Shown here piece by piece: positions 251-15,870 of a stretch of 41,073 nucleotides of DNA. This stretch comes from Candidatus Kaiserbacteria bacterium (GTDB taxonomy: Bacteria > Patescibacteriota > Minisyncoccia > Phycocordibacterales > UBA2100). The notes below the pieces were generated by a model. It worked only from the letters and a program-made list of their open reading frames with translations. It searched no databases and had not been told where the DNA came from. The DNA lies in assembly GCA_016214605.1 (NCBI GenBank), contig JACROD010000014.1:1-41073 (forward strand), written 5' to 3'. The first letter of the stretch is position 1. Every line of letters starts with the position of its first letter. The position numbers and the translations under genes are program-made.

Positions 251-1606
251 TTATTCCTTATCAATCTCTACCTCAGCAGGCTCTTCCGAAGAATCCTTGT
301 CGGTCTCTTCGTTGGCCTCCTCGGACACGACATCGCGATCTTGCGGCTGGGGATCGAGATTCTCCTCGCCTATCCCCTCTACCGCATCTGCGGCACCCAT
401 GTCTTTTTCGGTTTCATCGAAGGCGCTTTCTTTTGCAGAAACATCCTCGATGGTTTCGACGTCTTGCACCTTGGGAGCTTCTTTGCCGTCAGTCTCGGCG
501 AGGTGTTCGCCGCCGACACTACGAATATCGATCTTCCAGCCGGTCAAGCGTGCCGCGAGGCGCACATTTTGACCACCACGACCGATCGCGAGCGACTGCT
601 GATCCTCGGCGACCTGTACGATCGCGCGATTCTCGTCCTCAAAAAGCTCGAGTGAGAGTACCTGAGCGGGCTTGAGCGATTCTTTGACATATTCGGAAGC
701 ATCTTCAAACCATTCGACGACGTCGATCTTCTCGCCGCCGAGCTCGGAAGTGACCACCGCGACACGCACGCCGCGCTGGCCGACGAGTGCGCCTACCGGG
801 TCGACGTGCTCATCGGTAGAATGCACCGCGATCTTGGCACGGGAGCCCGGCTCACGCACGATACCCTTGACCTCGACGACACCGGACGCCATCTCGGGTA
901 CTTCGGTCTCAAAAAGTTTGGTGAGGAAGCGCGGATGCGAGCGAGAAAGGCGGATGAAGGTACCGCGCACACCTTCATCGACACGCAAGAGGAGCGCGCG
1001 TACACGCTCGCCCTGGCGATAACGCTCACCGGGGATCTGTTCGTCGTAGGGGAGGATGGCGGTCGCGCGACCGAGGTCGATAAAAAGATTACCGCGCTCA
1101 AAGCGCTGGACGTGGCCCGTGACAATCTCGCCCTCGCGCATGCCGTATTCGGAGATGATCGATGCGCGCTCCGCTTCGCGGACCTTCTGCATGATGACCT
1201 GCTTGGCAGCCTGGGCGGCGATACGGCCGAAATCCTCCTGTGACTCGAGCGGGAAGGAAATCTCCTCGTCGAGCTGAGCGTCGCGCTTGATGCGGCGCGC
1301 GTCTTCGATCATGATGTGCTGATCGGGATTGAAGCGCGAGCGATGGTCGTTTTCGTCGGTCGCTTCCTCGTCTTCCTTCCGGACCAGGGTATTGTCGACG
1401 ACGATCTTGGCCTGACGGAATTCGATATCGCCGTTTTCGGCATTAAAGGTCGCACGGACGATCTGGCCGCGCTTGCCGTATTCACGGCGATAAGCGGCGG
1501 CGAGGGCCGTCGCGATCGCTTCTACCACGCTGTCGCGGCTGATACCGCGCACCTCCTGAAGCTCATCGAGCGCTGAATTCAAGGTTTTTAGGTCAAATAG
1601 TGCCAT
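251..1606 (-). CDS. nusA: Transcription termination/antitermination factor NusA
   Basis: NusA binds RNA polymerase near the RNA exit channel and modulates pausing, termination and antitermination. The 451-aa product has the usual order: N-terminal polymerase-binding domain (about 1-130, MALFDLKTLNSALDELQ), S1 domain (about 150-215, GEIVTGHVQRFERGNLFIDL), then two KH domains (about 240-365) with GALVGQRGVRV and SLAIGRGGQNVRLAARLTGW. Residues from about 370 on form a low-complexity acidic tail rather than the AR repeats of enterobacterial NusA. The first ATG fits the family start. There is no Shine-Dalgarno sequence, and the leader is about 90 nt with a hairpin plus T-run. No rimP or infB is adjacent on the visible downstream side, where an IS-like element follows instead. 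Confidence 0.95.
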   Translation of the reverse strand: MALFDLKTLNSALDELQEVRGISRDSVVEAIATALAAAYRREYGKRGQIVRATFNAENGDIEFRQAKIVVDNTLVRKEDEEATDENDHRSRFNPDQHIMIEDARRIKRDAQLDEEISFPLESQEDFGRIAAQAAKQVIMQKVREAERASIISEYGMREGEIVTGHVQRFERGNLFIDLGRATAILPYDEQIPGERYRQGERVRALLLRVDEGVRGTFIRLSRSHPRFLTKLFETEVPEMASGVVEVKGIVREPGSRAKIAVHSTDEHVDPVGALVGQRGVRVAVVTSELGGEKIDVVEWFEDASEYVKESLKPAQVLSLELFEDENRAIVQVAEDQQSLAIGRGGQNVRLAARLTGWKIDIRSVGGEHLAETDGKEAPKVQDVETIEDVSAKESAFDETEKDMGAADAVEGIGEENLDPQPQDRDVVSEEANEETDKDSSEEPAEVEIDKE

Positions 1607-1660
1607 AGGAATAGGGGGCTAGGGTTTAGCCATTAGCCAATAGGGTTAGATTTGGTAAGG
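1607..1660 (-). repeat. CCCTA-rich leader segment upstream of nusA
   Basis: On the minus strand the 50 nt before the nusA ATG carry several CTAACCCTA/AAACCCTAG-type units and two GGCTAAT/GGCTAAA words. A similar segment precedes the superoxide dismutase gene (25595-25640). Both lie between the promoter and the ATG and no Shine-Dalgarno sequence is present. The function is unknown. Confidence 0.4.
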
Positions 1661-1663
1661 TTT

Positions 1664-1690
1664 TTAAAAAAAGCGCCCGGCAAGAGCCGG
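1664..1690 (-). promoter_or_regulatory. Candidate attenuator in the nusA leader
   Basis: On the minus strand a short hairpin (CCGGC-TCTT-GCCGG) is followed by GCGC and a run of seven T. It sits between the nusA promoter and the start codon, so it would act as a leader terminator. NusA is known to regulate its own operon in other bacteria. Here the autoregulatory role is inference. Confidence 0.4.
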
Positions 1691-1703
1691 AACGAATAGG
1701 GAT

Positions 1704-1731
1704 AGTGTACTGGAATAGGGGAGATTGTCAA
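1704..1731 (-). promoter_or_regulatory. Promoter of nusA
   Basis: Minus strand TTGACA (1731-1726), a 16-nt spacer, and TACACT (1709-1704). The -35 lies in an inverted repeat, TTGTCAA-AA-TTGACAA, which also offers a TTGACA on the + strand towards the small gene at 1800. Confidence 0.6.
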
Positions 1732-1799
1732 AATTGACAAGAACATACTGTGCATGTCATCATGACAATGGGATGTTCCAACCTGAGAGGAGGAGGGTC

Positions 1800-1955
1800 A
1801 TGGTACCTGTCCATATCCCAAACTACGAAAAGAAAGTGATTTTGCCGGCGACCTTGAGTAGCATTGCGTTTTGCGTGACATTTCTGTTGCTCATATTTGC
1901 GGAAATCACGTGGATTAAATATATGGTTCGAATCGGTGAATTCACGCTCAAATGA
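1800..1955 (+). CDS. Small single-span membrane protein
   Basis: A 51-aa protein, unrecognised. The ORF track starts it earlier, but the ATG at 1800 follows GAGAGGAGGAGGGTC, a very strong Shine-Dalgarno sequence, so this start is preferred. After a short polar N-terminus (MVPVHIPNYEKK), residues about 17-41 form one hydrophobic helix (SIAFCVTFLLLIFAEITWI). It ends at a perfect terminator. Its small size, strong ribosome binding site and own terminator suggest a well-translated peptide. It resembles the two- to three-span protein at 22513 in its expression signals, not in its sequence. Confidence 0.55.
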   Translation: MVPVHIPNYEKKVILPATLSSIAFCVTFLLLIFAEITWIKYMVRIGEFTLK

Positions 1956-1967
1956 GCCAGGCATGAA

Positions 1968-2006
1968 AAAGGCGGGGAGCATTGTGCTACCCCGCCTTTA
2001 TTTTTT
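1968..2006. terminator. Terminator, copy A of a duplicated block
   Basis: AAAGGCGGGG pairs with CCCCGCCTTT, with AGC/GCT also pairable inside, followed on + by ATTTTTT; the minus side also has a T-run. It ends the small gene at 1800 on + and the IOR-like 3' remnant on -. The same terminator with small changes occurs at 2734-2764. Confidence 0.8.
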
Positions 2007-2055
2007 AGGTCATTTTGACCTTCTCGCGGAAGCGCTTCAGGAGCGCTTCCGCTTT
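2005..2055 (-). pseudogene. Displaced 3' end related to the oxidoreductase gene
   Basis: Minus-strand codons read KAEALLKRFREK then VKMT and stop. The gene at 2791-6228 ends KAEALLKRFREK then TT and stop. The 12 shared residues, the stop, and the terminator that follows (copy A) make this a second, diverged copy of that gene's 3' end, cut off from any coding body. TA module 1 lies exactly between the two copies. The nucleotide block is also a hairpin (GCGGAAGCGCT / AGCGCTTCCGC, 2026-2052) followed by TTTT on +, so a repeat-element explanation is possible. Confidence 0.6.
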
Positions 2056-2070
2056 TCTCGATTTTATTGG

Positions 2071-2108
2071 ACTTGTTTATAATTCACGACCGTATGAGAT
2101 AAACAAGT
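2071..2108. repeat. 10-bp inverted repeat behind the TA1 toxin
   Basis: ACTTGTTTAT and ATAAACAAGT are perfect complements separated by 18 nt. They lie between the toxin stop codon (2113) and the displaced 3' end. It could be a weak transcription stop or mark the junction where the TA cassette joined. Confidence 0.5.
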
Positions 2109-2112
2109 ATTT

Positions 2113-2394
2113 TTATCTCTCGAATATCGACGCGTGCGTACCGATGTCGACGAGGAGCAGGATCAGCATATCATCTTGTTTCTTGTAGAGGAGCAGAAGA
2201 TCACCACGTATGTGACACTCGCGAATACCCTTGTACGCGCCCTTGAGTTCATGGTCGAGATATCGTGGCTCCAGCGGCACATCCTGCGTGAGTTTGATCA
2301 CCACGTCGTCAAGTTCTTCAGCGACAAAGCTTGGGTATTGAGAAACGCGTTTGAGAGACTTTTTGTATCGGCTTGTGGGCTTCACGACGTACAT
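2113..2394 (-). CDS. YafQ/RelE-family mRNA interferase toxin (TA module 1)
   Basis: A 93-aa protein with the compact RelE/YafQ fold. The C-terminal half carries the signature: basic N-terminal helix (SRYKKSLKRV), then LKGAYKGIRECHIRGDLLLLYK and a final DIGTHASIF strand. YafQ toxins cut mRNA on the ribosome, using His and acidic residues of this region. The RECHIRGDLLLLYK block and the late His are present, so it looks intact. It starts 9 nt after the antitoxin stop, in one transcript, and should be neutralised by that antitoxin. Confidence 0.88.
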   Translation of the reverse strand: MYVVKPTSRYKKSLKRVSQYPSFVAEELDDVVIKLTQDVPLEPRYLDHELKGAYKGIRECHIRGDLLLLYKKQDDMLILLLVDIGTHASIFER

Positions 2395-2403
2395 AAACCC
2401 CTA

Positions 2404-2679
2404 TTATTTCTTGCCGATGATCTCCCGGTGCATAGCACGCACGTCGGTATATACTTTCCCATGCTTGAGCGCATGATCCGCTTCGCGCATAAGCTGTTTC
2501 ATGAGGGAAGTCGGCGCATTGTCATAGGTGAAGATGCTCTGGGGCACTTCGCCTGTGCGCCCGATATGAGTGAGGAGCAGACGCACGCCGCTCGAAAGGT
2601 CGATACCAGAAGCCTTAAAGACTTTTTGCGCCCTACGCTTTGTCTTCTCGTCGATCCGCACTTGAAGTGTCGTGTTCAT
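2404..2679 (-). CDS. RelB/DinJ-family antitoxin (TA module 1)
   Basis: A 91-aa protein. The N-terminal ribbon-helix-helix is clear: MNTTLQVRIDEKTKRRAQKV, a turn at GIDLSSGVRLLLTHI. The C-terminal half is the charged, flexible toxin-binding part. It should bind its own promoter and the YafQ-like toxin encoded 9 nt downstream. A Shine-Dalgarno-like AGGAC precedes the ATG, and a good promoter lies directly upstream. Confidence 0.88.
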   Translation of the reverse strand: MNTTLQVRIDEKTKRRAQKVFKASGIDLSSGVRLLLTHIGRTGEVPQSIFTYDNAPTSLMKQLMREADHALKHGKVYTDVRAMHREIIGKK

Positions 2680-2686
2680 ATGTCCT

Positions 2687-2714
2687 ATGGTAGCAAGTGT
2701 AGTGCTGTTGTCAA
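2687..2714 (-). promoter_or_regulatory. Promoter of TA module 1
   Basis: Minus strand TTGACA (2714-2709), a 16-nt spacer, TACCAT (2692-2687), then AGGACAT before the ATG at 2679. The spacing leaves a very short leader. Confidence 0.6.
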
Positions 2715-2733
2715 TACATGATTTTCATACGAA

Positions 2734-2764
2734 AAAGGCGGGGTAGCATAAGCTCCCCGCCTTT
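2734..2764. terminator. Terminator of the oxidoreductase gene, copy B
   Basis: AAAGGCGGGG / CCCCGCCTTT stem with pairable AGC/GCT inside and a T-run on the minus side (CTTTTTCG). Nearly the same as the terminator at 1968-2006; each is followed on its right by the KAEALLKRFREK-coding palindrome. Confidence 0.8.
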
Positions 2765-2790
2765 ACTTATTTGTTCTACACAGGTTAAAC

Positions 2791-5700
2791 CTATGTAGTC
2801 TTCTCGCGGAAGCGCTTTAGGAGCGCTTCCGCTTTTTGTTTTGCCTTTTCGATGCTCGCTTGTTTCACGTGCCCATACCCTCGAATCTCTTCGGGGATAC
2901 TGAGCAGAGCAAGGGCATCGTCACGGTTTTTCGCGTTGAGACCGTATCCGATCTCAGCGACAAGCGCTTCGTACTGACGGATCAACTCGCGCTCTTCTTT
3001 GCGGTGCGCGCTGTATCCGAAAGGATCCAGCCACGTCCCGCGCAAGAACTTGAGCTTGGCCAAAACGACGCGCATCAATGTCCGCACCCACGGACCGAAC
3101 TCTCGCTTTTTGATACCCATCATGGGGGGAGCGAGCAGGTGAGTCGCCGTACCGTATTCACTGAATTCGCGCTCAAGCTGTCGCTCGAATGCGCCATCAG
3201 TGTAAAGCCGCGCTACTTCGTACTCATCCTTATAGGCCTTGAGCTTGAAGAGGTTCCTCGAGACCGCCTCGGTAAAAGGCGATCCTTCGGTTGTACCTGC
3301 CCGCACATCGAGCATCTTGGCCTCATTGACGATCTCTAGATATTGATCGGCATATGTGCGGCTTTGATACGCGACGAGCTCCTCCGCGTAGAACCGTATA
3401 CGCTCCTCTTGCGAGTCGGGCAAACGGTTTGCTTCAAACGCCTCTTTCCACCGCCATCCGACACCGTCGAACTCTTGCGGAAAAGCGGCAGCATACCGAC
3501 CGCAGGCAAAAGCATCGAGATTCATCTCCACACCAGCCCCATTGAGATGGATTGCTTCAATGATTGCATCGCCCTTGATGGGGATGAGCCCAAGCTGATA
3601 CGCAAAGCCGACAAGAAAGATGTTGGTCGGCATAGCATCGCCAAATAGCTCGGTCACATAGAATGTTGCCTCTATACCATGCACATGATTCGCACCCACC
3701 GCCTCTGTGAGTGCGGCGAGCATCTTTTCCTTGGGGAACACTTTTTGCGGATGATATATAAACTCCGCCGTCGGTGTCTCGTGCAGATTGATCACGACAC
3801 GGCTCACCCCGCGCTTGAGCAAGGCGAGTGCTTGAGAGCCTACGGAGGTCACCAGATCACACCCGATCATTACATCTGCTTGACCCGGCGGTATGCACGT
3901 CGAAGAGATGTGCTTACTATTGATACGCACATCACTACTGACCAGCCCACCTTTTTGAGCCAAACCGTTCCCTGAATGCCCTGAGACTGGAAACCCGCAG
4001 ATGTGCGCGGCCATGCAGAGTATCCATTCTGCGGTCTTGACACCGGTCCCTCCGATCCCCATGAGTGATATGTCGTACGACCGCTCGGTGAGAATCGGCA
4101 ACACGGGCTCAGGTATCACCCTTTGAGCAAGCTCGCGTGCGAGACCGCGACGGTGCGCGAGCACCGCGCCCTTGACGACAACGAAGCTCGGGCAGAATCC
4201 TTCCGCACAACTTTTGTCTTTGTTGCAACTGTGCTGATCGATCTGGCGTTTTCGGCCAAATTGAGTCTCCACTTGCACCACAGAAAGACACTCCGCCTTT
4301 GCACAATCATTGCATCCTTCGCACACACGCTCATTGATTATCACACGATCAGGCTCCGGCAAGCGACCGCGATTGCGGGCGCGCCGTTTCTCTGCGGCAC
4401 ATCCTTCATCGTAGATGATGACCGAGACGCCGGGCACTTCCCACAGTGATTCCTCGATTGTCTGCATGTTCTTGCGTGGATGGATATGCACACCCGGCGC
4501 ACAATCCTTCACGGAAATGGCTTCGGGAAATTCGGCAACGATTTCGATGCGCCGCATTCCCTCGGCATACAGTATCCACGTGAGCTCCGGCGTCGTATGC
4601 CCGCCTTCGGACTTTTGGCCTCCGGTCATGGCAATAGCGCCATTATTGAGGAGTTTGACTGTAATCCCTTTACCTGACCCAAGTCTTTTGAATCCCGCTT
4701 CCAGCTGCCGTAGAGCAAGCGAACCGGAATGGGCAAACGTGCCGTCGCCCATGTTCCCGGACATGTGTTTTTTATCCGAGAAGGGCATCCACCCGAGTAT
4801 AGGGACCATTTCGCCCCCCATTTGGGTAACGCCTACGGTCTGACTGTCTTGTGGCAAGGCCTTCATGTAGTGGCATCCGATGCCCGCGTACGCTTTTTTC
4901 CCTTCGGCGACATGTGTCGACTTAGGGTGAGGACAACCGGGACAGAAGTGTGGAGTCCTTTGCACTTCTATGAACTGCTGTGCGTGTGCGACCGCATCCT
5001 GCGAGATGATTTCCTTCAGCCGACGATCGAGATCTTCATCGCGACTGCCACACTGTGCACAGGCTTTCACGATCGCATCCGCGATCTGCGCGACCGAGAG
5101 CACTCCAATCGAAGGCAATGCGCCACCGCCCGGGATATTCTTCCCGAAGATACGTGGTGATGTTGGCCTCGCATCGTAGAACATCTTTTTGAGTTGCCCT
5201 TCGACGATATCGGCTTTTTCTTCGACCACAAGCACACATGACGCATTCAGCAGACGCCTCATTGTAGGGGAGTCGAATGATAGGGGGTACGGCATGTCGA
5301 TGCAGACAACGGCGATACCCAGTTTTTGTCGTGCGTGCTCATCGATGCCAAGTAGGCGTAAGGCCTCCATGACTTCGGTGTACATCCTACCTACGCCCAT
5401 GATTACCAGACGCAGATGATCTGTGTCATGGGTAAGCATGTTCAAGTGGTTTGTATGTGCGAATGCTTCTATACGCTTGAGACGGTGCACCATTTTGGCT
5501 TCCAACTCAAGCGGCTTGTCTTTGAGGCTCAGGTGGAGATCGTATAGATCAACGATCTTCGGTACAACGATTTTGAAGCATGGATCGACGAAGATCCGCG
5601 CCGATGCATCGCATATATTGGAGACCAGATTGATTCCGACCCATGAGCCGCTGTGACGGGACATTGCCCACCCCAGCATCATGAAGTCGAACATTTGCTG

Positions 5701-6228
5701 CGGCGTGCTCGGCTCGAGGTAGGGCATGCCGACCTGCATGAGTGCATACCCGGACTGATGCGGAATCGTAGATGACTCATTTCCAGGGTCGTTGCCGATC
5801 AGCGCGAGCGCTCCTCCATGAGGAGAAACTCCTGCGGCACAGGCGTGCATGAATGCGTCCATCGATTGATAGAAGCCAGGGCCTTTGCCATACCACGCGC
5901 TAAAGATGCCATGATAGGGTGTGCCTCCGAATTCCTTCGATTGCTGAGATCCCCATGCGATATTCGCAGCCAAATTTTCGTTGACGGCCATGAAGGATTG
6001 GACATGCGGGGCCCCGACTCTTGCGGCCTCTGCAAGCGAGACATTGAGTCCGCCCAAGGGCGAACCCGTATAACCCCAAGCACCCCCGGCAGTGTTCAGG
6101 CCTGCCCGCTCGTCTCGCTTGCGCTGGACGAGCAGAGGAAGCGCCAAAGACTGCATGCCGGTGAGATACATGTACGTCGCCGTCTCAGGTACCGACGGCC
6201 AGTTGAGCAGTGGTAATTTTTCGCTCAT
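2791..6228 (-). CDS. Fused indolepyruvate:ferredoxin oxidoreductase (2-oxoacid:acceptor oxidoreductase with DUF6537-type tail)
   Basis: Predicted to oxidise aryl- or branched-chain 2-oxoacids with CoA to acyl-CoA plus CO2, passing electrons to ferredoxin or a similar carrier. The 1145-aa product is a single-chain fusion. Residues about 1-420 are the pyrimidine-binding (alpha) domain. About 430-640 are the TPP domain (FCPGCPHPKSTHV, GNMGDGTFAHSG, then LLNNGAIAMTGGQ, the GDG...NN pattern). A cysteine-rich Fe-S segment follows (CEGCNDCAKAEC and CNKDKSCAEGFC). Next comes the gamma domain (DISLMGIGGTGVKTAEWIL) and a C-terminal region like DUF6537. The family is best known from Proteobacteria. The start is set at MSEKLPLLNW because GAGAGGA precedes it; the 104 residues upstream in the ORF track look non-coding. 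It has its own terminator. Confidence 0.9.
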   Translation of the reverse strand: MSEKLPLLNWPSVPETATYMYLTGMQSLALPLLVQRKRDERAGLNTAGGAWGYTGSPLGGLNVSLAEAARVGAPHVQSFMAVNENLAANIAWGSQQSKEFGGTPYHGIFSAWYGKGPGFYQSMDAFMHACAAGVSPHGGALALIGNDPGNESSTIPHQSGYALMQVGMPYLEPSTPQQMFDFMMLGWAMSRHSGSWVGINLVSNICDASARIFVDPCFKIVVPKIVDLYDLHLSLKDKPLELEAKMVHRLKRIEAFAHTNHLNMLTHDTDHLRLVIMGVGRMYTEVMEALRLLGIDEHARQKLGIAVVCIDMPYPLSFDSPTMRRLLNASCVLVVEEKADIVEGQLKKMFYDARPTSPRIFGKNIPGGGALPSIGVLSVAQIADAIVKACAQCGSRDEDLDRRLKEIISQDAVAHAQQFIEVQRTPHFCPGCPHPKSTHVAEGKKAYAGIGCHYMKALPQDSQTVGVTQMGGEMVPILGWMPFSDKKHMSGNMGDGTFAHSGSLALRQLEAGFKRLGSGKGITVKLLNNGAIAMTGGQKSEGGHTTPELTWILYAEGMRRIEIVAEFPEAISVKDCAPGVHIHPRKNMQTIEESLWEVPGVSVIIYDEGCAAEKRRARNRGRLPEPDRVIINERVCEGCNDCAKAECLSVVQVETQFGRKRQIDQHSCNKDKSCAEGFCPSFVVVKGAVLAHRRGLARELAQRVIPEPVLPILTERSYDISLMGIGGTGVKTAEWILCMAAHICGFPVSGHSGNGLAQKGGLVSSDVRINSKHISSTCIPPGQADVMIGCDLVTSVGSQALALLKRGVSRVVINLHETPTAEFIYHPQKVFPKEKMLAALTEAVGANHVHGIEATFYVTELFGDAMPTNIFLVGFAYQLGLIPIKGDAIIEAIHLNGAGVEMNLDAFACGRYAAAFPQEFDGVGWRWKEAFEANRLPDSQEERIRFYAEELVAYQSRTYADQYLEIVNEAKMLDVRAGTTEGSPFTEAVSRNLFKLKAYKDEYEVARLYTDGAFERQLEREFSEYGTATHLLAPPMMGIKKREFGPWVRTLMRVVLAKLKFLRGTWLDPFGYSAHRKEERELIRQYEALVAEIGYGLNAKNRDDALALLSIPEEIRGYGHVKQASIEKAKQKAEALLKRFREKTT

Positions 6229-6318
6229 CGTCTGTTCCTCTCTTGATACGAGTGAATGTACTGAGCTGGCGGTATTCAACCATGGAAATCCGTATAAATA
6301 AAGATATTTCAATATGAC

Positions 6319-6336
6319 AGAATTGTGCTCAATTCT
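6319..6336. promoter_or_regulatory. Inverted repeat upstream of the oxidoreductase gene, possible operator
   Basis: AGAATTG-TGCT-CAATTCT, 7-bp perfect arms with a 4-nt centre, about 90 bp before the oxidoreductase start. Its size fits a dimeric regulator site. No regulator gene is adjacent and no clear -35/-10 pair was found here. Confidence 0.35.
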
Positions 6337-6369
6337 GCACCTCGGTGCCGTAGCTCCTTGAGAAAAGAA

Positions 6370-6390
6370 CCCCCGCCTTTCGGGCAGGGG
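6370..6390 (-). terminator. Terminator of the thioesterase gene
   Basis: Minus strand CCCCTGCC-CGAAA-GGCGGGG (one T-G wobble) followed by GTTCTTTTCTC, just past the thioesterase stop. Confidence 0.7.
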
Positions 6391-6403
6391 ATGAATAGGA
6401 ACA

Positions 6404-6907
6404 CTACTTTTTACGTTTCTCATGATCTTCTTGCAGGCGCCTGTCGCGACGGACTTGGGCTTCTTCGAAACGGCGTTTCTCATCGGGGGTTTCGGGGATA
6501 ATGCGCGGCAGTTTTTTTCGGACACCGCACTCGTCGACACTGACGGTGACGAGTGTGAAATAGGCGCTCACAATATGTCGCAGGCTAGCTATTTCCGTCT
6601 TTTGCGCATACACCTTCACTCCTACTTCCATAGAGGTGCCCCACGCGCGGTTGATGGCGACATTGAATATCAAGACTTCGCCTAGTATTGCGGGACCGAG
6701 AAATCTGAACGAATCTGCGGACAACGTGACACAATCCATTTGACTGTGCCGCATAGCTACGATGCCCGCAAGCTTATCAGCAATCTCCATGATACGCCCA
6801 CCAAAGACTGTGTTGCGGGCATTCATGTCGTTTCCGAAGATCAAGTGACAGTAACCGTCGACGACTGATTGTGCGACCGTCTTGGGAGGAATATCATGCG
6901 TAGTCAT
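6404..6907 (-). CDS. Hotdog-fold acyl-CoA thioesterase (YciA/YkhA-like)
   Basis: Predicted to hydrolyse acyl-CoA to free acid and CoA. The 167-aa protein has the hotdog core: CHLIFGNDMNARNTVFGGRIMEIADKLAGIVAM, where NxxxTVFGGxIMxxxD is the family signature with the active-site Asn/Asp region and central helix. Strands follow (TLSADSFRFLGPAILGEVLI, GTSMEVGVKVYAQ). The tail is charged (EEAQVRRDRRLQEDHEKRKK). An AAGGAG lies 7 nt before the ATG. It has its own promoter and terminator, between the carboxyltransferase and oxidoreductase genes. A role in releasing CoA from products of these enzymes is inference. Confidence 0.88.
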   Translation of the reverse strand: MTTHDIPPKTVAQSVVDGYCHLIFGNDMNARNTVFGGRIMEIADKLAGIVAMRHSQMDCVTLSADSFRFLGPAILGEVLIFNVAINRAWGTSMEVGVKVYAQKTEIASLRHIVSAYFTLVTVSVDECGVRKKLPRIIPETPDEKRRFEEAQVRRDRRLQEDHEKRKK

Positions 6908-6934
6908 AGGTGACTCCTTTTCTGCTCTGATCGG

Positions 6935-6963
6935 AGACTAGCAATTTCGCCCCACCGACGCAA
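6935..6963 (-). promoter_or_regulatory. Promoter of the thioesterase gene
   Basis: Minus strand TTGCGT (6963-6958), 17-nt spacer, TAGTCT (6940-6935). The -35 begins right at the T-run of the upstream gene's terminator. Confidence 0.5.
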
Positions 6964-6993
6964 CAAAAAAGGAGCCGCTATCGCGGCTCCTTT
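6963..6993 (-). terminator. Terminator of the carboxyltransferase gene
   Basis: AAAGGAGCCGC-TATC-GCGGCTCCTTT perfect stem followed by TTTTTTG on the minus strand. Confidence 0.8.
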
Positions 6994-7036
6994 GCATCTG
7001 CTCTTTTTCCTTCAAAGATCGTAGCCCTTGTCCACT

Positions 7037-8698
7037 CTATACGGGCGGCAGATTCCAAAGACTTTCGACCGGCACTTCGGACACCTTGAGGGCGTCGTGG
7101 GCCGCCTGCGCAAACCATGATAAGTAGCTGCGCATGTCGGTGAGCCGTACCACTTCATCGACAATACCGTGCTGCGCCGCGTAGCGCGGACTTGAGGTCT
7201 CGCGATACTGCGCCATCAGCGCGTTCATCTCATTGATGACCACTTGCTGAGCTTCTCTCGAAGCCGCTTTCAGCAGTTTGTTGCCATAGAGAGCCATCGC
7301 CGCACTTTGCGGATGCATGACCATGATCTCCGTGAGCGCCGTACCGAGCGTCATCGCGTTGGCGGTGGCCATCGGACCGCACTGCACATAATGACTCGCC
7401 GCATGCGCCTTGCGGAGCTCGACGGTCGCCATAGGGATCTTCGCTTTTACAATGGCAGCAATGAGCGCCTGGCCGAGCCCGAGGAGTCCCGCGAGCTCGG
7501 CTTCGTCGCCCACATCTATCCCCGTCGTATCTTGCAACCACACCATTGGTATTTTGTTCGCGCCACACCACGCGACGAACCCTTGCATCTTGATGAGTCC
7601 TTGCCGGTACAGCTTGCCCCCGATACCGTCATAGGTGGCGTAATCGGGGTATCCGCGCGGTAGAAAGCCTTGTCGATTGGCGACGATACCGACCGCACAC
7701 CCGTCGATGTCTGCATATGCGCAATACACCTCGGGACCATACGCGGGCATGTATTCGCGCGCCATACTCCGGTCGACGATCCGCGCAAGCACTTCTTTGA
7801 TATCGTAGGATCGTGCGCGGTCGTGGGGAAGCAAGGTATACAGTTCGCGCACGTCGTAGTCCGGCCAATCAGGCCAGTCTCGCTGGGCTCGTGGCACAGG
7901 ACATGTCAGACAACCGCGCATCGCATCAATGACCTCTTCTTCCGTGTCGAACACGTGATCGAAGAGTCCTGTCTCGGTATGCACCACAGCACTGCCGGGA
8001 GGCGGGATGGTATTTGCTTTCTTGATCTCCGCGATCAGCATATCGACGTCTTCAATACTGAAGCCGTTTCTCGATGCACTCATACCGCTGAGGATCGCCG
8101 TGCCGGCGATCGACATACTCGCATCCTTGTGGGCGAAACGCTTCGTCGCGGATATCGCACCGTAGCCTCCACCTGCGGTATTGGTGCCGAAGATTCCCGC
8201 GATAATGGGGGTGCCGATCTCGTTGGCAAGCTCCGCGTTGTTGTAGAAGATGCGCCCACCGCTTCTGCGGCCAGAATAGACACGATGCTGGCGTCCGAGA
8301 TGGAGTCCGCTACATTGCAGTAGCGTAAAGATCGGCACATGCAACATCATCGCGACTTCTTGAATGCGCAAGATCTTCTCGGGCTGGCCGGGAAGCCATG
8401 CGCCCTTGCATACTTCGGGATTGGATGCGATCACACAGACACAGTGTCCATGCACCTTTGCCAGTCCGGTGATAGCACCCGTCCCACCTTCAGGATTATG
8501 CTCGGGATCAAAGAGACTCCCGAGCGGGAGAAACGTGTCCGGATCGACGAGAAGCTTTATACGCCGCTGTGCGACGGTCTCCTTCGCTGCCGTTTGAAGC
8601 CCTTGTTCTATCGATTGGATCTGATCTGCGTTGGCGCTCGCGCGCTCTTCGCAGGGTGAACCGAGCATGTGTAGGGGGCCGAACATGTCTGTATTCAT
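7037..8698 (-). CDS. gcdA: Glutaconyl-CoA decarboxylase alpha-like biotin-dependent carboxyltransferase
   Basis: A 553-aa carboxyltransferase (two crotonase-like halves). It resembles the alpha subunit of glutaconyl-CoA decarboxylase more than generic propionyl-CoA carboxylase beta. Matching stretches are WLPGQPEKILR, the RRSGG..FFxNAEL-type segment (here RRSGGRIFYNNAELANEIG), GTNTAGGGYGAIS, GIGGKLYRQGLIKM, WLQDTTGIDVG and AELAGLLGLGQ. GcdA removes CO2 from glutaconyl-CoA and passes it to biotin; GcdB then releases it while pumping sodium ions. No biotin carrier, GcdB or biotin carboxylase gene lies in the window, so partners must be elsewhere or the substrate differs. The start at MNTDMFGP follows GAAAGGAAC; the longer track start would run into the upstream dehydrogenase gene. 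Confidence 0.8.
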   Translation of the reverse strand: MNTDMFGPLHMLGSPCEERASANADQIQSIEQGLQTAAKETVAQRRIKLLVDPDTFLPLGSLFDPEHNPEGGTGAITGLAKVHGHCVCVIASNPEVCKGAWLPGQPEKILRIQEVAMMLHVPIFTLLQCSGLHLGRQHRVYSGRRSGGRIFYNNAELANEIGTPIIAGIFGTNTAGGGYGAISATKRFAHKDASMSIAGTAILSGMSASRNGFSIEDVDMLIAEIKKANTIPPPGSAVVHTETGLFDHVFDTEEEVIDAMRGCLTCPVPRAQRDWPDWPDYDVRELYTLLPHDRARSYDIKEVLARIVDRSMAREYMPAYGPEVYCAYADIDGCAVGIVANRQGFLPRGYPDYATYDGIGGKLYRQGLIKMQGFVAWCGANKIPMVWLQDTTGIDVGDEAELAGLLGLGQALIAAIVKAKIPMATVELRKAHAASHYVQCGPMATANAMTLGTALTEIMVMHPQSAAMALYGNKLLKAASREAQQVVINEMNALMAQYRETSSPRYAAQHGIVDEVVRLTDMRSYLSWFAQAAHDALKVSEVPVESLWNLPPV

Positions 8699-8774
8699 GT
8701 ACGTTCCTTTCTTTTGTTTCAAAGAACCGTTCCTCGCGAACGAGAAAAGAGATTGACTCCATATTTCCACGATC

Positions 8775-8803
8775 ACCCTATCTTTTTGCACCCCTGTCGT
8801 CAA
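8775..8803 (-). promoter_or_regulatory. Promoter of the carboxyltransferase gene
   Basis: Minus strand TTGACG (8803-8798), 17-nt spacer, TAGGGT (8780-8775). The -35 follows directly on the TTTTTA run of the dehydrogenase terminator. The leader is about 70 nt. Confidence 0.55.
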
Positions 8804-8834
8804 TAAAAAGGGGAGCCGCGTCTTTGCGGCTCCC
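8804..8834 (-). terminator. Terminator of the acyl-CoA dehydrogenase gene
   Basis: GGGAGCCGC / GCGGCTCCC stem with a 6-nt loop and CTTTTTATTG on the minus side, 7 nt past the stop codon. Confidence 0.75.
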
Positions 8835-8840
8835 TTGTAC

Positions 8841-10013
8841 TCACTCGCCAAATTCCTTGGCGAGGTATTTGGAGATGATGTCCAGTTGGACTCTGTTGTG
8901 TCCCTCATAGATGCCGGTCAGCAAGATTTCTATCAGGCGTTGCATGTATGGGTGCGTAGTGAGCACAATCTGGCCCCCAAACATTTCCGTGATGGCGAGA
9001 GCGGCTTCCTTTGCTGTCTCGGTCGCGACGTATTTCACGTAGGAAGCCTCAGCCTTGAAGTCTTTGTGCGCATCGCACTTGCGTGCCGCCGCGACGACTC
9101 CTTGCCACGCAACCCACAACTTGGCACGGGCTTTGGCGAAGTCATGCTGGGTGGTCTGCTTGTCCCAGAGCGTACCTCCAAACATCTTCCGATCGCGACA
9201 ATACTTCATCGCCTCGTAGAAGATGCGTTCGCTCATACCGATCGACTGTGCCCCGATCCCGATGCGTCCGAAAGCAAGCGAGTGCATAAACGAGCGGAAT
9301 CCTTCCCCAGACTTACCAAGTCGAGCAGACTCATGCACGGACACGTTGTTCAAGCCGAGGCGACAGAAGCTCGCACACTTGAAGCCATACTTCTCTCCCT
9401 CCGAGCTCACCGTGAATCCAGTCGGTACGGAGCCCGTTTTCATATCGATGACAAAGGCCGATATATCCTTGCGCACGAAACCGACATGATGCGCCGTCAC
9501 GACAATAATTGAAGCCTGTTCGAGATTCGTGGTGAAACACTTATCACCCGTCAAGCTGTAACATTTTGATCGCAGATCAAATTCCGCCTCGACATTCGTC
9601 GTGAGGGCGTCGGACCCTCCTGCAGGACTGGTGAGGCCAAAAGCACCAATCTCGCCGGCTGCCATGCGCGGGAGATAAAGCCTCTTTTGTTCATCCGTAC
9701 CCGCTTGAATGATGACCTCAACGGCGAGATTGTGCGCCGTCCAGATCAGATGCAATCCCGGCCACCAGTATGCCAATTCGCGTGCGACGTATGCCGCCGC
9801 TTCAGCGCCCATACCTGAGCCGCCATACTCAACCGGAATGATGAGTCCGAAGACTCCCATCTCGGCGAGCCACTTTACGGCCTTATTCGGAAACTGCCCA
9901 TTCTTTTCGAACGTCTCGTACTGTGAAAGAAGCTCTTTCTTGCCGTATTTGCGGATCTGTTTAAGAAGCGCACACAGCACGTCATCTTGGGGCATTGGCC
10001 ATGTTTCAGACAT
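8841..10013 (-). CDS. Acyl-CoA dehydrogenase
   Basis: FAD enzyme that introduces an alpha-beta double bond into acyl-CoA and passes electrons to ETF. The 390-aa length is typical. Visible motifs: helical N-terminal domain ending IPVEYGGSGMG; the flavin-binding beta domain FGLTSPAGGSDALT and CFTTNLEQASIIVV; the C-terminal helical domain FGRIGIGAQSIGMSERIFYEAMKYC; and IYEGHNRVQLDIISKYLA, which holds the usual catalytic Glu (the family norm is YEGT; here His replaces Thr). Next to a GcdA-like gene, a glutaryl-CoA-type substrate is plausible but unproven. The start follows CGGAGG. It has its own promoter and terminator. No etfAB genes are in the window. Confidence 0.9.
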   Translation of the reverse strand: MSETWPMPQDDVLCALLKQIRKYGKKELLSQYETFEKNGQFPNKAVKWLAEMGVFGLIIPVEYGGSGMGAEAAAYVARELAYWWPGLHLIWTAHNLAVEVIIQAGTDEQKRLYLPRMAAGEIGAFGLTSPAGGSDALTTNVEAEFDLRSKCYSLTGDKCFTTNLEQASIIVVTAHHVGFVRKDISAFVIDMKTGSVPTGFTVSSEGEKYGFKCASFCRLGLNNVSVHESARLGKSGEGFRSFMHSLAFGRIGIGAQSIGMSERIFYEAMKYCRDRKMFGGTLWDKQTTQHDFAKARAKLWVAWQGVVAAARKCDAHKDFKAEASYVKYVATETAKEAALAITEMFGGQIVLTTHPYMQRLIEILLTGIYEGHNRVQLDIISKYLAKEFGE

Positions 10014-10051
10014 TTTTTCCTCCGTTTTCGTAGGGCTTTTCCTCTGCCGTC

Positions 10052-10079
10052 GTTATACGCTAAGGTCGCGAAAAGTCAA
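10052..10079 (-). promoter_or_regulatory. Promoter of the acyl-CoA dehydrogenase gene
   Basis: Minus strand TTGACT (10079-10074), 16-nt spacer, TATAAC (10057-10052), then a leader of about 35 nt with GGAGG. The -35 is fused to the T-run of the upstream terminator (TTCTTTTGACT). Confidence 0.65.
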
Positions 10080-10085
10080 AAGAAT

Positions 10086-10113
10086 GGGCCGGGCTCGCTA
10101 GCGAGCCCGGCCC
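10086..10113. terminator. Palindromic terminator of the gene at 10137
   Basis: Perfect palindrome with arms GGGCCGGGCTCGC and complement around TA, followed on minus by ATTCTTTTG. Confidence 0.75.
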
Positions 10114-10136
10114 CACACCTCTTGTAATAAATCACC

Positions 10137-10847
10137 TTACTGATCGTCGGTCGGCTCAAGGATCAGCTTACTGAGCGCGTCTGCCGCAGGTTTATAGAGG
10201 CCGGGCATATACACTTCATCAAGCCACTGCTTGACCGCGTCATCGCCGATAATGATCTTATCCTCCCAGCTTCCTTCTTCCTGAAGGATAATATAAAGAG
10301 GACGCGGATCATGATCGCTATAAAATTCCCTGAAGATGTTTTCTTCGACGACAGAAAGGGGTCGACTCAGGTCACCCTTCATAAGCAGCCCAACCTCTCC
10401 TTCGACATATCGCGACACATCGATCGTCGGAGCGACTTGATCGCTTGTACGATAACGTGGGGGACACGTGACTCCTTCGTTTTTGAGTACACCCAACCGA
10501 TAGTATGTCACATGAGCGTATTCAGACTCTCCGATAAATACGTGTTTCACAAGACGCCTTCCCGGAAATGTCACGAGCACAAACTCGCCTTTCTTTCCCT
10601 TGAGGGCCTCGTCGATCGCGCGATATTTGGCCGTCAGGACATCATCGTCCTTTTGGTGAAAACGAATAACGAGGTCGCGCATGGCGTCGCCGGTCGTCTC
10701 TCCCTCTTCAATCGCCTTAGCGAGCATCTGCATACGTTCGGCCAAGGCCTTTTCGTATGCAGATATCTGAGCCCTGAGGCTCGCGAGAGAATCCTTGATC
10801 CCTTGGACCCCCAAAATGAGCTGTTCCATGTCTACTCCGTCCTCCAT
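10137..10847 (-). CDS. Hypothetical protein with N-terminal coiled coil
   Basis: A 236-aa protein I do not recognise. Residues about 10-55 look like a coiled coil (ILGVQGIKDSLASLRAQISA, then YEKALAERMQMLAKAIEEGE). The rest looks globular, with mixed strands (GEFVLVTFPGRRLVKHVFIG) and many acidic residues. No signal peptide, membrane span or cysteine cluster; probably cytosolic. Two starts are possible: ATG 10847 after GGGAGAG, or an in-frame ATG six codons later after GGACGGAG. It has its own promoter and perfect-palindrome terminator and is divergent from pilB. Nothing visible links it functionally to either neighbour. Confidence 0.7.
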   Translation of the reverse strand: MEDGVDMEQLILGVQGIKDSLASLRAQISAYEKALAERMQMLAKAIEEGETTGDAMRDLVIRFHQKDDDVLTAKYRAIDEALKGKKGEFVLVTFPGRRLVKHVFIGESEYAHVTYYRLGVLKNEGVTCPPRYRTSDQVAPTIDVSRYVEGEVGLLMKGDLSRPLSVVEENIFREFYSDHDPRPLYIILQEEGSWEDKIIIGDDAVKQWLDEVYMPGLYKPAADALSKLILEPTDDQ

Positions 10848-10883
10848 GATTCTCTCCCTTCATCACTATATTCGTCTGCGGCG

Positions 10884-10912
10884 AGTGTATAGCACATCTG
10901 GATAACGTGCAA
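10884..10912 (-). promoter_or_regulatory. Promoter of the gene at 10137
   Basis: Minus strand TTGCAC (10912-10907), 17-nt spacer, TACACT (10889-10884). Confidence 0.55.
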
Positions 10913-10932
10913 TTTGACGCGCGGAGATACTA

Positions 10933-10938
10933 TATAAT
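10933..10938 (+). promoter_or_regulatory. -10 box of pilB, leaderless arrangement
   Basis: TATAAT with only 6 nt before the ATG at 10945, so the predicted transcript starts at or beside the start codon. No Shine-Dalgarno sequence fits in between. The nearest -35-like TTGACG (10914-10919) is only 13 nt away, which is short. Confidence 0.55.
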
Positions 10939-10944
10939 AGACAC

Positions 10945-12669
10945 ATGTATATCAGTGATTCGCAGCTCAAATCCTTCCTCGCCGACGCCGGACTCATATC
11001 ACAAAAAGACTTCGACACTGCCCAAAAGGAAGCTGCAGAAGGAGGGCGCACGGTAGGGGAAGTACTCACCGCACGCAATGCGATCAGCGAGGATGAACTC
11101 CGCCGCACCTACGCCTACATCCTCGGCATTCCGTTCGTCTCGCTCGTCGGTATCAACATCGACTACGATACGCTCTCGCTCATCCCCGAACCGGTCGCGC
11201 GCCGCAACAACATCATCGGATATATCAAACACGGCGATGAGCTTGAGGTGGCGATGCTCGATACCGACGATCTCGCCGCGATCGATTTCATCAAGAAAAA
11301 GACGCGCCTCAAGGTCTTACCGCGCCTGACCGACGCCGCATCGATCAAAGCAGCACTCAAACAATACCAACAATCACTCAAGGACAACCTCGGTGAAGTG
11401 ATCCAACACGAGACGGATACCTTGGAAAAGGATTCGGACGCCGATATCAAACAGGTCGCCGAAGGCGCATCCGCCGTACGCATCGTCGACACGCTCTTGC
11501 GTCATGCCAACGTACAGGGCGCTTCCGATATCCATATCGAACCGCTTGAGGATTCGCTTTTGATCCGCTACCGCATCGACGGCATTCTCCACGATGCCAT
11601 GACTCTGCCCAAGCACGCTGCCGCAGCGATCACCGCGCGCATCAAGGTCTTGTCGAGTATGAAGCTCGACGAAAAACGCCTTCCTCAAGACGGGCGTTTT
11701 GCCGCCGAGAACGCCGGCGAAAAGGTCGCGTTTCGCGTCTCGATATTACCCACGTACTACGGCGAAAAGATCGTCATGCGCCTCTTGCGCGATTCGATCT
11801 CGGGATTCACGCTCGAGTCGATCGGCTTCCACGGCGCGGCGCTCGAACACATGCATGATGCCATGAAGAAGACGACCGGCATGATCCTCACCACAGGTCC
11901 GACCGGCGCCGGTAAATCGACGACGCTCTACACGCTGCTCGATATCGTCAACACGCCCAACGTCAATATCTCGACGGTCGAGGACCCAATCGAATATCAA
12001 ATGCCGCGTGTGAATCAAACGCAGGTCCGCCCTGATATCGGATTTACTTTTGCCAATGGCCTGCGCACACTCGTGCGCCAAGATCCCGACATCATCATGG
12101 TCGGCGAGATCCGCGACAAAGAGACTGCATCCTTGGCGATCAACGCCGCACTCACCGGCCACCTTGTACTCTCGACCTTGCACACCAATTCCGCCGCGGG
12201 TGCAGTGGCCCGCTTGCTCGACATGGGTATCGAGCCATTCCTCCTGATCTCGACCCTACGCGTCATTATTGGTCAACGTCTCGTGCGCAAGTTCACCAAC
12301 AAAAAAGAGAAGTACGAATTGGGACGCGATGCGCAAGAACAGCTCGAACACCTCATTGATCCCGGTGTCGTACTCAAAGCGCTTAAAAAAGAACGCGCCG
12401 TCGCACCCGACACACTCTGGAAAGATATTCCGTTCTATCACCCGACGGACAATGAGGGCAAGTCTGGCTACTCGGGCCGTGTCGGCATCTACGAAGTCCT
12501 CCCGGTGACCGCGACCATCAAAGAGCTCATCATGCAAAATGCGACCGGCGACGCGATAGGAGAGCAAGCACGCAAAGAAGGCATGCTTTCCATGGTAGAA
12601 GACGGCATCTTCAAGGCCGCCCAAGGCCTCACTTCGATCGAAGAAGTAATGCGCGTGATCACGGAATAA
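10945..12669 (+). CDS. pilB: Type IV pilus assembly ATPase PilB (GspE family)
   Basis: Hexameric ATPase at the inner face of the membrane that drives pilus extension. The 574-aa product has an N-terminal MshEN/GspE-N domain (about 1-140) and a C-terminal ATPase with TTGPTGAGKSTTLYT (Walker A), the Asp box region VEDPIEYQMPRVNQTQV, DIIMVGEIRDKETA (Walker B) and the His box LSTLHTNSA. The usual four-cysteine zinc site before GYxGRxGIYE is missing: the region reads FYHPTDNEGKSGYSGRVGIYE and no cysteine is found nearby. First of a + strand pair with pilC. Natural transformation or surface attachment are the likely roles. Confidence 0.95.
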   Translation: MYISDSQLKSFLADAGLISQKDFDTAQKEAAEGGRTVGEVLTARNAISEDELRRTYAYILGIPFVSLVGINIDYDTLSLIPEPVARRNNIIGYIKHGDELEVAMLDTDDLAAIDFIKKKTRLKVLPRLTDAASIKAALKQYQQSLKDNLGEVIQHETDTLEKDSDADIKQVAEGASAVRIVDTLLRHANVQGASDIHIEPLEDSLLIRYRIDGILHDAMTLPKHAAAAITARIKVLSSMKLDEKRLPQDGRFAAENAGEKVAFRVSILPTYYGEKIVMRLLRDSISGFTLESIGFHGAALEHMHDAMKKTTGMILTTGPTGAGKSTTLYTLLDIVNTPNVNISTVEDPIEYQMPRVNQTQVRPDIGFTFANGLRTLVRQDPDIIMVGEIRDKETASLAINAALTGHLVLSTLHTNSAAGAVARLLDMGIEPFLLISTLRVIIGQRLVRKFTNKKEKYELGRDAQEQLEHLIDPGVVLKALKKERAVAPDTLWKDIPFYHPTDNEGKSGYSGRVGIYEVLPVTATIKELIMQNATGDAIGEQARKEGMLSMVEDGIFKAAQGLTSIEEVMRVITE

Positions 12670-13978: not shown

Positions 13979-15313
13979 CTATTTAATAGAGTACGTGCCG
14001 GGTATATAAGCCCATGATCCGCCCGGACCCGAGCTAAACAGCGCACTTCCTAGGCCGGTCTCGTAGACAATCTCCGCCGAGTTCTTGACCTCGATCCGAT
14101 ACCCTGTGACTTCTTTGAGGTTGATGTTGTTCTCAAGGGCGATTCGTCCGTGTCCTGCATAGATAAGCATGTCTCCGCTCGCGCTGTTGCTCACTTCAAT
14201 CGCGGTCTCATTGCCCCCATTCTGGGCGCTATTATTTTGTGACAAAAACATGACGTATGACCCTGTCTGCCCCGTACCCTCCACCGTCATCGAATTGTCC
14301 ATTGAGAGTTTGCTCGACGTGGTGCGATTTGATTCATTGTCAACGACGATCGCCACACTCTGACTTCCGAGAGAAGGATCAATGGTGATCGTCGGGGAGT
14401 TCTTGATGGTGAGGTTACCACTCACCCAGAGAGGTCCGGCGAGAGTCACGGTGCCGCCACTGATCGTGACGTCACAATTGATCTTTTTGGGACCGATGGT
14501 GACCGAAGAGGATATCGTGTACGGACACGGCGTCGTATGCACACCTCCGGCCGCAGCCGCCGTCTTCCATTCTTCTACTTGTGTGTCCGGGATCGGGAGC
14601 GACGACGTGGCCACATCCGCACTGCCAAGATACGACGTGCCACCTATCGACGTACCGGAGATCGACTGATAGTACGCATCTTTATCGATATCAGAATCAG
14701 TGATCGTGTGGGCGCGCGCCGTATTGGTAGCATAGATACCGTCAATGAGACCAGATGGTCCTGCCGAGATCACATCGCCGCGTACGATATTACTGTTCGC
14801 TCCCGTGATTGGACCGTTGGAAAAGAGGTTGCCGCGCACCGAAGCGGAGTTTTGTAGATCAACACCGCCGTTGTCCGACTGCACACCGAACTGAAAGGCG
14901 ATGACATCGGCATTGATCGTAACATCTGCCTTGATGGTCCTCATCGCACGAGGACTGGTGCTGTTGGGCACATACCCCACGACCGTGACGTGTTTTGTAT
15001 TGGAATTGACAGCTGTGACCGTCGTCGTGAAGGTCCCCGCGCCGAGCGCGGTATTGACCTCGCCCGTATAGCCTGCATTTTGATTGAGTTCGTAGATCGC
15101 CTTGTCGATACCAGCCTCAGCCAGCGCGATTGCTTGTTTGTCGGCTATTGCGATATGTTGGCTGCGTGCATAGAGCGTCATGTGATTGATGAATCCGGCA
15201 AACACCATCACAAATATCGCCATGAAAACGAGCGCCATAACGAGCACATATCCCTGCCTGCCGGCCCGCTTCGACGACAATTTGGTGAGACGAGTATGGG
15301 TAGGATATTTCAT
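13979..15313 (-). CDS. PilX-like pilus assembly/minor pilin-related protein
   Basis: A 444-aa protein. The N-terminus is basic, followed by GYVLVMALVFMAIFVMVFAGFI, a single hydrophobic helix like that of PilX-type minor pilins, whose G(Y/S)xLVxAL motif here lacks the classical prepilin Glu at position 5. An AEAGIDKAIYEL segment follows, as in PilX N-domains. Residues about 150-440 are Thr/Ser/Gly-rich repeats of short strands (SASVRGNLFSNGPI, SVTIGPKKINCDVTISGGTV), consistent with a beta-helix displayed outside the cell. Last gene of a three-gene minus-strand operon; its ATG overlaps the upstream stop (ATGA). Confidence 0.75.
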   Translation of the reverse strand: MKYPTHTRLTKLSSKRAGRQGYVLVMALVFMAIFVMVFAGFINHMTLYARSQHIAIADKQAIALAEAGIDKAIYELNQNAGYTGEVNTALGAGTFTTTVTAVNSNTKHVTVVGYVPNSTSPRAMRTIKADVTINADVIAFQFGVQSDNGGVDLQNSASVRGNLFSNGPITGANSNIVRGDVISAGPSGLIDGIYATNTARAHTITDSDIDKDAYYQSISGTSIGGTSYLGSADVATSSLPIPDTQVEEWKTAAAAGGVHTTPCPYTISSSVTIGPKKINCDVTISGGTVTLAGPLWVSGNLTIKNSPTITIDPSLGSQSVAIVVDNESNRTTSSKLSMDNSMTVEGTGQTGSYVMFLSQNNSAQNGGNETAIEVSNSASGDMLIYAGHGRIALENNINLKEVTGYRIEVKNSAEIVYETGLGSALFSSGPGGSWAYIPGTYSIK

Positions 15314-15870
15314 ATATTACGTAAGCGCGCAGATTCATGCAGGTGCGCTTGGATCAACTGTCCTTGTACGGTCTTTTGCGTCTGTATGTCGATCTCGGTG
15401 CTCGTGGCGGACGACAAGGTCACGTTGTTGTAGGTAAACACAAGCGTATTTAGTGTATCACTGAGTCGTCGCGTCCCACTTCCGCGTGCACTTCCGGCTC
15501 CCGCTTCGGTCACTTTGTACACGCTCGTACTCGTCGCAAAAAAAGCGATGTAGTCATACCTCCCGGCAATAGCGGCACCGGTGCCGTCTATCGCGGGAAG
15601 CCTGAAGACCACTTCGTCGCTTCCCGAAGTGTAGTTTTCACCGGAAAAAGCATGTGAAGTGACCACTTGACTCGCCTGTAGAGCAGTGTGCTTGAATTCG
15701 TCGACAACCTCTCGCGCGGAGCCGTTCACCTCCACGCGCGCCTGCTGTATCACAAACACCGCGTCATATCCCGTGTATATATTGTAGAGAACGAGCATAA
15801 TGAGAATCACCACCGCGGTCGATATCAATATTTCTACAAGCGTAAATCCTTTTTTGAGTGAATATTTCAT
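15310..15870 (-). CDS. Prepilin-like protein (PilW/type IV pilin family)
   Basis: A 186-aa protein with leader MKYSLKKG and cleavage motif GFTLVEILISTAVVILIMLV, including Glu at +5, the substrate signature for prepilin peptidase (PilD). The rest is a small globular pilin domain ending in FTYNNVTLSSATSTEIDI. The ORF-track start is upstream; the ATG at 15870 is preferred because it follows CAGGAGG and gives a normal leader. It overlaps the upstream gene's stop and the downstream gene's start by 4 nt each (ATGA), so the three are probably translationally coupled. Confidence 0.85.
   Translation of the reverse strand: MKYSLKKGFTLVEILISTAVVILIMLVLYNIYTGYDAVFVIQQARVEVNGSAREVVDEFKHTALQASQVVTSHAFSGENYTSGSDEVVFRLPAIDGTGAAIAGRYDYIAFFATSTSVYKVTEAGAGSARGSGTRRLSDTLNTLVFTYNNVTLSSATSTEIDIQTQKTVQGQLIQAHLHESARLRNI

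Follow-up and report, generated by a model that had tools for sequence, protein, structure and literature searches.

The stretch of DNA considered here (the window, 41,073 nucleotides) lies at the start of a 158,570-bp contig (JACROD010000014.1) from a Candidatus Kaiserbacteria genome, labelled G000. The 34 contigs of this genome total 1,093,994 bp, with completeness of 96.8% and contamination of 0.03%. The window carries four adjoining minus-strand genes for enzymes of 2-oxoacid and acyl-CoA metabolism: a fused indolepyruvate-type 2-oxoacid:ferredoxin oxidoreductase (IOR; 2791–6228, 1145 aa), a hotdog acyl-CoA thioesterase (TE; 6404–6907, 167 aa), a GcdA-type carboxyltransferase (CT; 7037–8698, 553 aa) and an acyl-CoA dehydrogenase (ACAD; 8841–10013, 390 aa). 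They lie in an island of ~9.3 kb (1607–10944) between nusA and pilB, which point away from each other, and a second copy of the island is found in a sister species, G673. The coordinates and strand of the four genes had been given by an earlier inspection of the letters alone (the sequence-only reading) and are borne out by open reading frame (ORF), Pfam and NCBIfam matches. Its description of a tandem cluster holds in that the genes adjoin one another, but terminator-like hairpins with T-rich tails stand 3' of ACAD (8834–8811), CT (6993–6968) and TE (6390–6370), so that the enzyme genes appear to be transcribed singly rather than as one operon, and the island is wider, with a toxin–antitoxin (TA) pair and a further gene.

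On the left, nusA (251–1606, minus strand; NusA, 372 bits) is conserved, with 92% identity in G673 and 79–87% in other congeners, as is pilB on the right (10945–12669, plus strand; TIGR02538, 515 bits), with 88.5% in G673 and about 75–80% in others. Between nusA and IOR lie genes for a YafQ-type toxin (2113–2394, minus strand; PF15738, 92 bits) and a RelB/DinJ-type antitoxin (2404–2679, minus strand; PF04221, 30 bits), and between ACAD and pilB a gene for a 236-aa protein (10137–10847, minus strand), which has no Pfam or NCBIfam match and no match in the sister locus. No integrase or transposase of the island's own is present among its Pfam and NCBIfam matches, and no RNA element exceeded the Rfam thresholds. 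Codon usage and tetranucleotides of the island match those of the host genome.

The nusA–pilB site

The gap between nusA and pilB measures only 244 bp in the congener G257 and 112–241 bp in four others (G664, G665, G676 and G579), which identifies 1607–10944 of the window as an island. Other congeners hold other genes at this position: a homoserine O-succinyltransferase gene, two genes for pyridoxal phosphate-dependent enzymes of Cys/Met metabolism and a Phd/YefM–ParE pair in G671 (L228:1213–6179), a major facilitator superfamily transporter in G672 (L224:15660–16958) and a GNAT protein in G666 (L223:2789–3343). In G631 (L230:705–2234), a gene for an amine-oxidase-fold (phytoene-desaturase-like) protein lies upstream of nusA, in a stretch that was read to a point before any pilB. 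The site is a cargo hotspot, empty in some relatives and variably filled in others. A chimeric join, against which the sequence-only reading had advised a check, is rejected: both flanks are syntenic with congeners and the independent G673 assembly holds the island at the same site, which, together with the normal composition, argues that the island is neither a chimera nor a contaminant. A viral origin was also considered and set aside, IMG/VR scans with the IOR and CT alignments having returned no relative.

Elsewhere in the window (13979–16280), type IV pilin-like genes with an N_methyl motif and a gene for a 444-aa protein occupy the gap between pilC and tpi, the length of which varies among congeners.

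The four enzymes

Read from the ATG at 6228, the IOR belongs at full length to the fused indolepyruvate ferredoxin oxidoreductases (PRK13030/NF009589), which are common in Proteobacteria; it scores 1103.7 bits and the G673 protein 1153 bits, where the cut-off is 816. The IOR resembles these enzymes in length, domain order, iron–sulfur cysteines and thiamine diphosphate motif: all 11 cysteines common to five proteobacterial homologues, as well as the GDGT motif, are kept in both proteins from the Candidate Phyla Radiation (CPR). It differs from them in that the nearest relative found outside G673 is only about 42% identical, that no ferredoxin was detected in the genome and that its neighbours are not those of three plasmid copies viewed with their flanks. 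In Caballeronia, the fused IOR adjoins genes for branched-chain amino acid transporters. No solved relative of the IOR was found by phmmer. The TE (PF03061, 4HBT; 54 bits) is an ACOT-like hotdog protein that resembles the solved ACOT12 and ACOT7 structures.

The CT start at ATG 8698 is preceded by a sequence like a ribosome-binding site and agrees with the start in G673, while a longer ORF from 8908 would overlap ACAD. For most of its length, the protein shows homology to the CT subunit of the Na+-translocating glutaconyl-CoA decarboxylase GcdABCD of Clostridium symbiosum and Acidaminococcus, with 45% and 44% identity over the matched length to the solved GcdA structures 3gf3 and 1pix (450 and 417 bits); the next best match, 148 bits, is far behind, and acyl-CoA carboxylase beta chains reach 148 bits or less. 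The CT retains the AGGGY loop together with most residues invariant in GcdA. Its 80 best relatives come mainly from Desulfobacterota (42–48% identity), and the CPR proteins sit on a long stem. Among 156 columns near-invariant in these relatives, both CPR CTs depart at 30, for example in GTNPAGGG, which becomes GTNTAGGG (P174T beside the AGGGY loop), and in HYVxGGP, which becomes HYV(Q/M)CGP (G440C); the count for a Firmicutes/Fusobacteria clade is 13 of 193. This loss was considered as a sign of new chemistry, but by our estimate it is roughly proportional to the long stem and thus no proof of it by itself. The nearest relative, in the locus L058, is distant (47% identity). There (L058:8728–12895), the GcdA-type gene stands between a weakly matching enoyl-CoA hydratase-like gene and a gene like that for 3-hydroxy-3-methylglutaryl-CoA (HMG-CoA) lyase (NCBIfam 150 bits, cut-off 246), so a GcdA-type protein need not always be a glutaconyl-CoA decarboxylase.

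The ACAD has four ACAD Pfam matches (among them PF00441, PF02770 and PF02771), all three ACAD domains and the catalytic Glu of the C-terminal YEG motif. Its best NCBIfam matches lie far below their cut-offs; against the glutaryl-CoA dehydrogenase model NF045552 it scores 148.6 bits and the G673 enzyme 152.4, with a cut-off of 470, and short- and branched-chain ACADs are its best matches in the PDB. In glutaryl-CoA dehydrogenase, an Arg binds the carboxylate of the glutaryl group (PMC3169403). In our alignment, the corresponding column holds His in the window ACAD and Phe in that of G673, and Arg in the enzymes of L118, L125 and L064. We take this column to correspond to Arg94 of the human enzyme. 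Long branches dominate the ACAD tree, which is not relied on here. Desulfobacterales loci also pair the two genes: in L118, L125 and L127 the gcdA-type gene directly follows one for an ACAD, and in others the ACAD gene is near by. The ACAD of these pairs is a glutaryl-CoA dehydrogenase or closely similar to one, with NF045552 scores of 794 bits (L118), 800 (L064) and 438 (L125). The island likewise has the two genes side by side, but its ACAD stays well short of the NF045552 cut-off and has no Arg at the substrate-binding position.

The sister copy and its history

The CT is confined to G000 and G673 among the 52 genomes of the genus that were searched, and no other GcdA-type CT was present in a 380-genome draw of the phylum or a 297-genome draw of the order. 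A 2-oxoacid and acyl-CoA gene set is therefore as unusual for CPR bacteria as had first been supposed, and the four are not ordinary CPR genes. A distantly related CT (26–27% identity) does occur in the family f43 of the same phylum, in genomes of 1.4–2.0 Mb (G039, G057 and G019; loci L002, L003, L004, L006, L016 and L017), of which G039 and G057 also have an ACAD (30–33%) and genes for IOR subunits; f43 is a separate case of acyl-CoA metabolism within the phylum.

At the G673 site, the genes for IOR, an AMP-forming acyl-CoA synthetase, TE, CT and ACAD are found, those shared with G000 in the same order; the extra synthetase is like acetoacetyl-/acetyl-CoA ligases. Identity between the two species is 69% for CT and 74% for TE, compared with 49% for IOR and 33% for ACAD. 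At third codon positions, CT (0.51) and TE (0.50) fall within the range of five flanking core genes (0.46–0.64), and their ratios of nonsynonymous to synonymous divergence (dN/dS), about 0.15 and 0.10 with 0.06–0.13 for the core genes, are rough because dS is near saturation. These codon comparisons indicate that CT and TE have been under purifying selection and have diverged like ordinary genes. For IOR (0.40) and ACAD (0.34), the third-position identity points to divergence well beyond the species level. The last ~120 residues of the IOR are ~75% identical between the species, and in trees of separate segments the two CPR IORs stay together, with a path length of 1.96 at the N-terminus, 2.73 in the middle and 0.75 at the C-terminus; exchange or fast evolution may account for the catalytic part. 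The two CTs are sisters on their long stem, as are the two IORs (support 100/100). The simplest account is that the island was acquired once, in the ancestor of the two sister species of this Patescibacteria-like genus and before their split, that CT and TE would then have been inherited vertically, and that IOR in part and ACAD entirely would later have been exchanged or have changed very fast. The genus is called Patescibacteria-like here by inference, since near-complete genomes of 0.4–1.1 Mb make up most of the listed phylum members and searches of this genome missed many standard biosynthetic genes.

The island edge has a history of its own. In G000, the RelB/DinJ–YafQ pair (2113–2679) is enclosed by two 37-nt copies of the IOR 3' end (2020–2056 and 2800–2836, 97% identical), and the hairpin of this repeat has just these two copies in the genome. 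In G673, TA genes of a different family and in the opposite orientation adjoin nusA, likewise between two copies of the IOR 3' end (L222, 3218–3308 and 4085–4175, 95% over 91 nt). It looks as if TA genes had been swapped at that spot through duplication of the IOR gene end; in both species they lie outside the enzyme block. Downstream of the G000 toxin gene is a palindrome, ACTTGTTTAT...ATAAACAAGT (2071–2110), with a second copy on contig C8 near 10094 and one also downstream of the different toxin gene of G673. Another palindromic repeat (AGTACACAAGTC-GACTTGTGTACT) lies on both sides of the G673 CT gene (L222:10342–10371 and 12166–12195) and is absent from G000.

Partner proteins

The enzymes would ordinarily be expected to work with partners, and the sequence-only reading had placed the genes for biotin carrier, GcdB, electron transfer flavoprotein (ETF) and ferredoxin outside the window; as searched, they are missing from the whole genome. 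In profile searches, Biotin_lipoyl (PF00364, the biotin carrier GcdC) had no match in G000 or G673, with 14 of 14 controls matched; OAD_beta (PF03977, GcdB) had none in G000, with two of 14 controls matched, as expected for a rare family; CPSase_L_D2 (biotin carboxylase) had none in G000, with working controls; and ETF (PF01012) had none in G000, G673, G661 or G257, with 10 of 14 controls matched. A biotin ligase was not detected in the genome by tblastn or phmmer with E. coli BirA as the sole query, and a scan for CxxCxxCxxxC motifs yielded no plausible ferredoxin ORF, nor was there a match to E. coli Fdx, flavodoxin not having been searched for. With E. coli queries, a weaker test, no match appeared for enoyl-CoA hydratase, thiolase, pyruvate:ferredoxin oxidoreductase, coenzyme A (CoA) synthesis, AckA, IscU or SufB. 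In G257 only, a borderline Biotin_lipoyl match of 22.2 bits (L235; G257:C8:30043–30246) occurs, and another part of that contig weakly matches AccC.

Thus, with these partners not found, the genes fit neither the Na+-pumping Gcd pathway nor an ETF-linked one as known, and the sodium pumping first suggested for the island is, like an ETF-linked route, not supported. In addition to the 30 changed CT columns, the undetected GcdB, GcdC and biotin carboxylase set it apart from GcdABCD.

Possible roles of the island

The best explanation, to which we give a probability of about 45%, is that the metabolic genes form an island, acquired by horizontal transfer at the nusA–pilB hotspot, inherited by two sister species and kept by selection, which would act on acyl-CoAs derived from 2-oxoacids without the usual partners. 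IOR would convert a 2-oxo acid, from amino acids of a host or the environment, into an acyl-CoA by oxidative decarboxylation; ACAD would put a double bond into it; CT would move or remove a carboxyl group; and TE would release the acid and free the CoA. Electrons and carboxyl groups might pass to an acceptor of another kind, or CoA and carriers might be supplied by a host, host supply being the plainest guess. The anatomy, the site, the sister copy, the kept catalytic residues, the purifying selection on CT and TE and, at the sensitivity of the searches, the lack of the partner families are observed; the order of the steps, the substrate and the dependence on a host are inferred. That a biotin-free CT and an ETF-free ACAD are coupled to the fused IOR to make up a new acyl-CoA pathway, stand-alone or coupled to a host, in a partner-less CPR cell is, as a more specific claim, unlikely. 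Several points weigh against the proposed role. With 49% identity for IOR and 33% for ACAD between the species, it is uncertain that both use the same pathway, and an active IOR is hard to explain where E. coli queries and the motif scan detect neither a ferredoxin nor a scaffold of the SufB/IscU type. A search with E. coli queries may, though, overlook homologues that are present, as it did with RibF, which was then found with the RibF of a congener.

Other explanations share part of this evidence. The island might encode the canonical route, from 2-oxoadipate to glutaryl-CoA by IOR, to glutaconyl-CoA by ACAD and to crotonyl-CoA by GcdA with Na+ pumping, as the closeness of CT to GcdA and the ACAD–CT pairing reminiscent of Desulfobacterales would suggest, but the missing carboxylate-binding Arg (His or Phe instead) conflicts with the glutaryl-/glutaconyl-CoA breakdown first proposed. 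Since the ACAD reaches ~149 of the 470 bits required and the searches found neither GcdB nor ETF, nor any biotin carrier or biotin carboxylase, this route is distinctly improbable. A leucine- or isovalerate-type route, in which IOR would turn 2-oxoisocaproate into isovaleryl-CoA and ACAD would form 3-methylcrotonyl-CoA, interconverted by CT with 3-methylglutaconyl-CoA, fits the short-/branched-chain ACAD matches, the synthetase added in G673, the transporter genes beside the Caballeronia IOR and the HMG-CoA lyase-like and enoyl-CoA hydratase-like neighbours of the L058 CT. It is nevertheless rather doubtful, for no biotin subunit was found, the L058 HMG-CoA lyase-like gene is the best match of no G000 protein in a comparison of the genome with the loci, and the neighbourhood comes from a single metagenome-assembled genome with a distant CT.

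The island might also be passive cargo maintained by its TA genes, with enzymes of no use to the cell. The lack of partners would agree with this, as would the different TA pairs at its edge in G000 and G673 and the third pair (Phd/YefM–ParE), found with the methionine genes of the G671 nusA–pilB gap, but the enzyme ORFs are all intact in two species, pN/pS of CT and TE is like that of core genes, the 11 IOR cysteines are kept in both species and the TA genes stand outside the enzyme block, so that useless cargo appears unlikely. An assembly artefact or contaminant contig, which a gene set almost unheard of in the phylum might bring to mind, is extremely improbable given the synteny and composition described above, the independent G673 assembly and the contamination of 0.03%.

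Meaning for small-genome bacteria

Horizontal transfer and genomic islands in Patescibacteria are already known (Gios et al. 2025, PMC12455944), and the locus resembles the reported islands as a horizontally acquired block in a small Patescibacteria-like genome. Genes for energy production were few among the transfers in that survey, whose main text leaves acyl-CoA enzymes unmentioned; at the locus described here, a set of enzymes occupies the same site in two species. Our literature search returned no publication that joins Patescibacteria with glutaconyl-CoA decarboxylase, or with acyl-CoA dehydrogenase and indolepyruvate. What is new is a recurrent, partner-less cassette under selection.

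The island gives a small, probably host-dependent bacterium an imported block of four intact-looking genes for the breakdown of amino-acid-derived acids; with their usual partners not found in the genome, the enzymes must work differently or lean on a host. Patescibacteria-like cells are thought to obtain ready-made building blocks from their hosts. If the proposed role is true, selected acyl-CoA enzymes without biotin, ETF or ferredoxin partners would point to partner-free versions of these enzymes or to direct metabolic coupling to the host. The nusA–pilB site offers a concrete spot for following the gain and exchange of metabolic genes in such small genomes.

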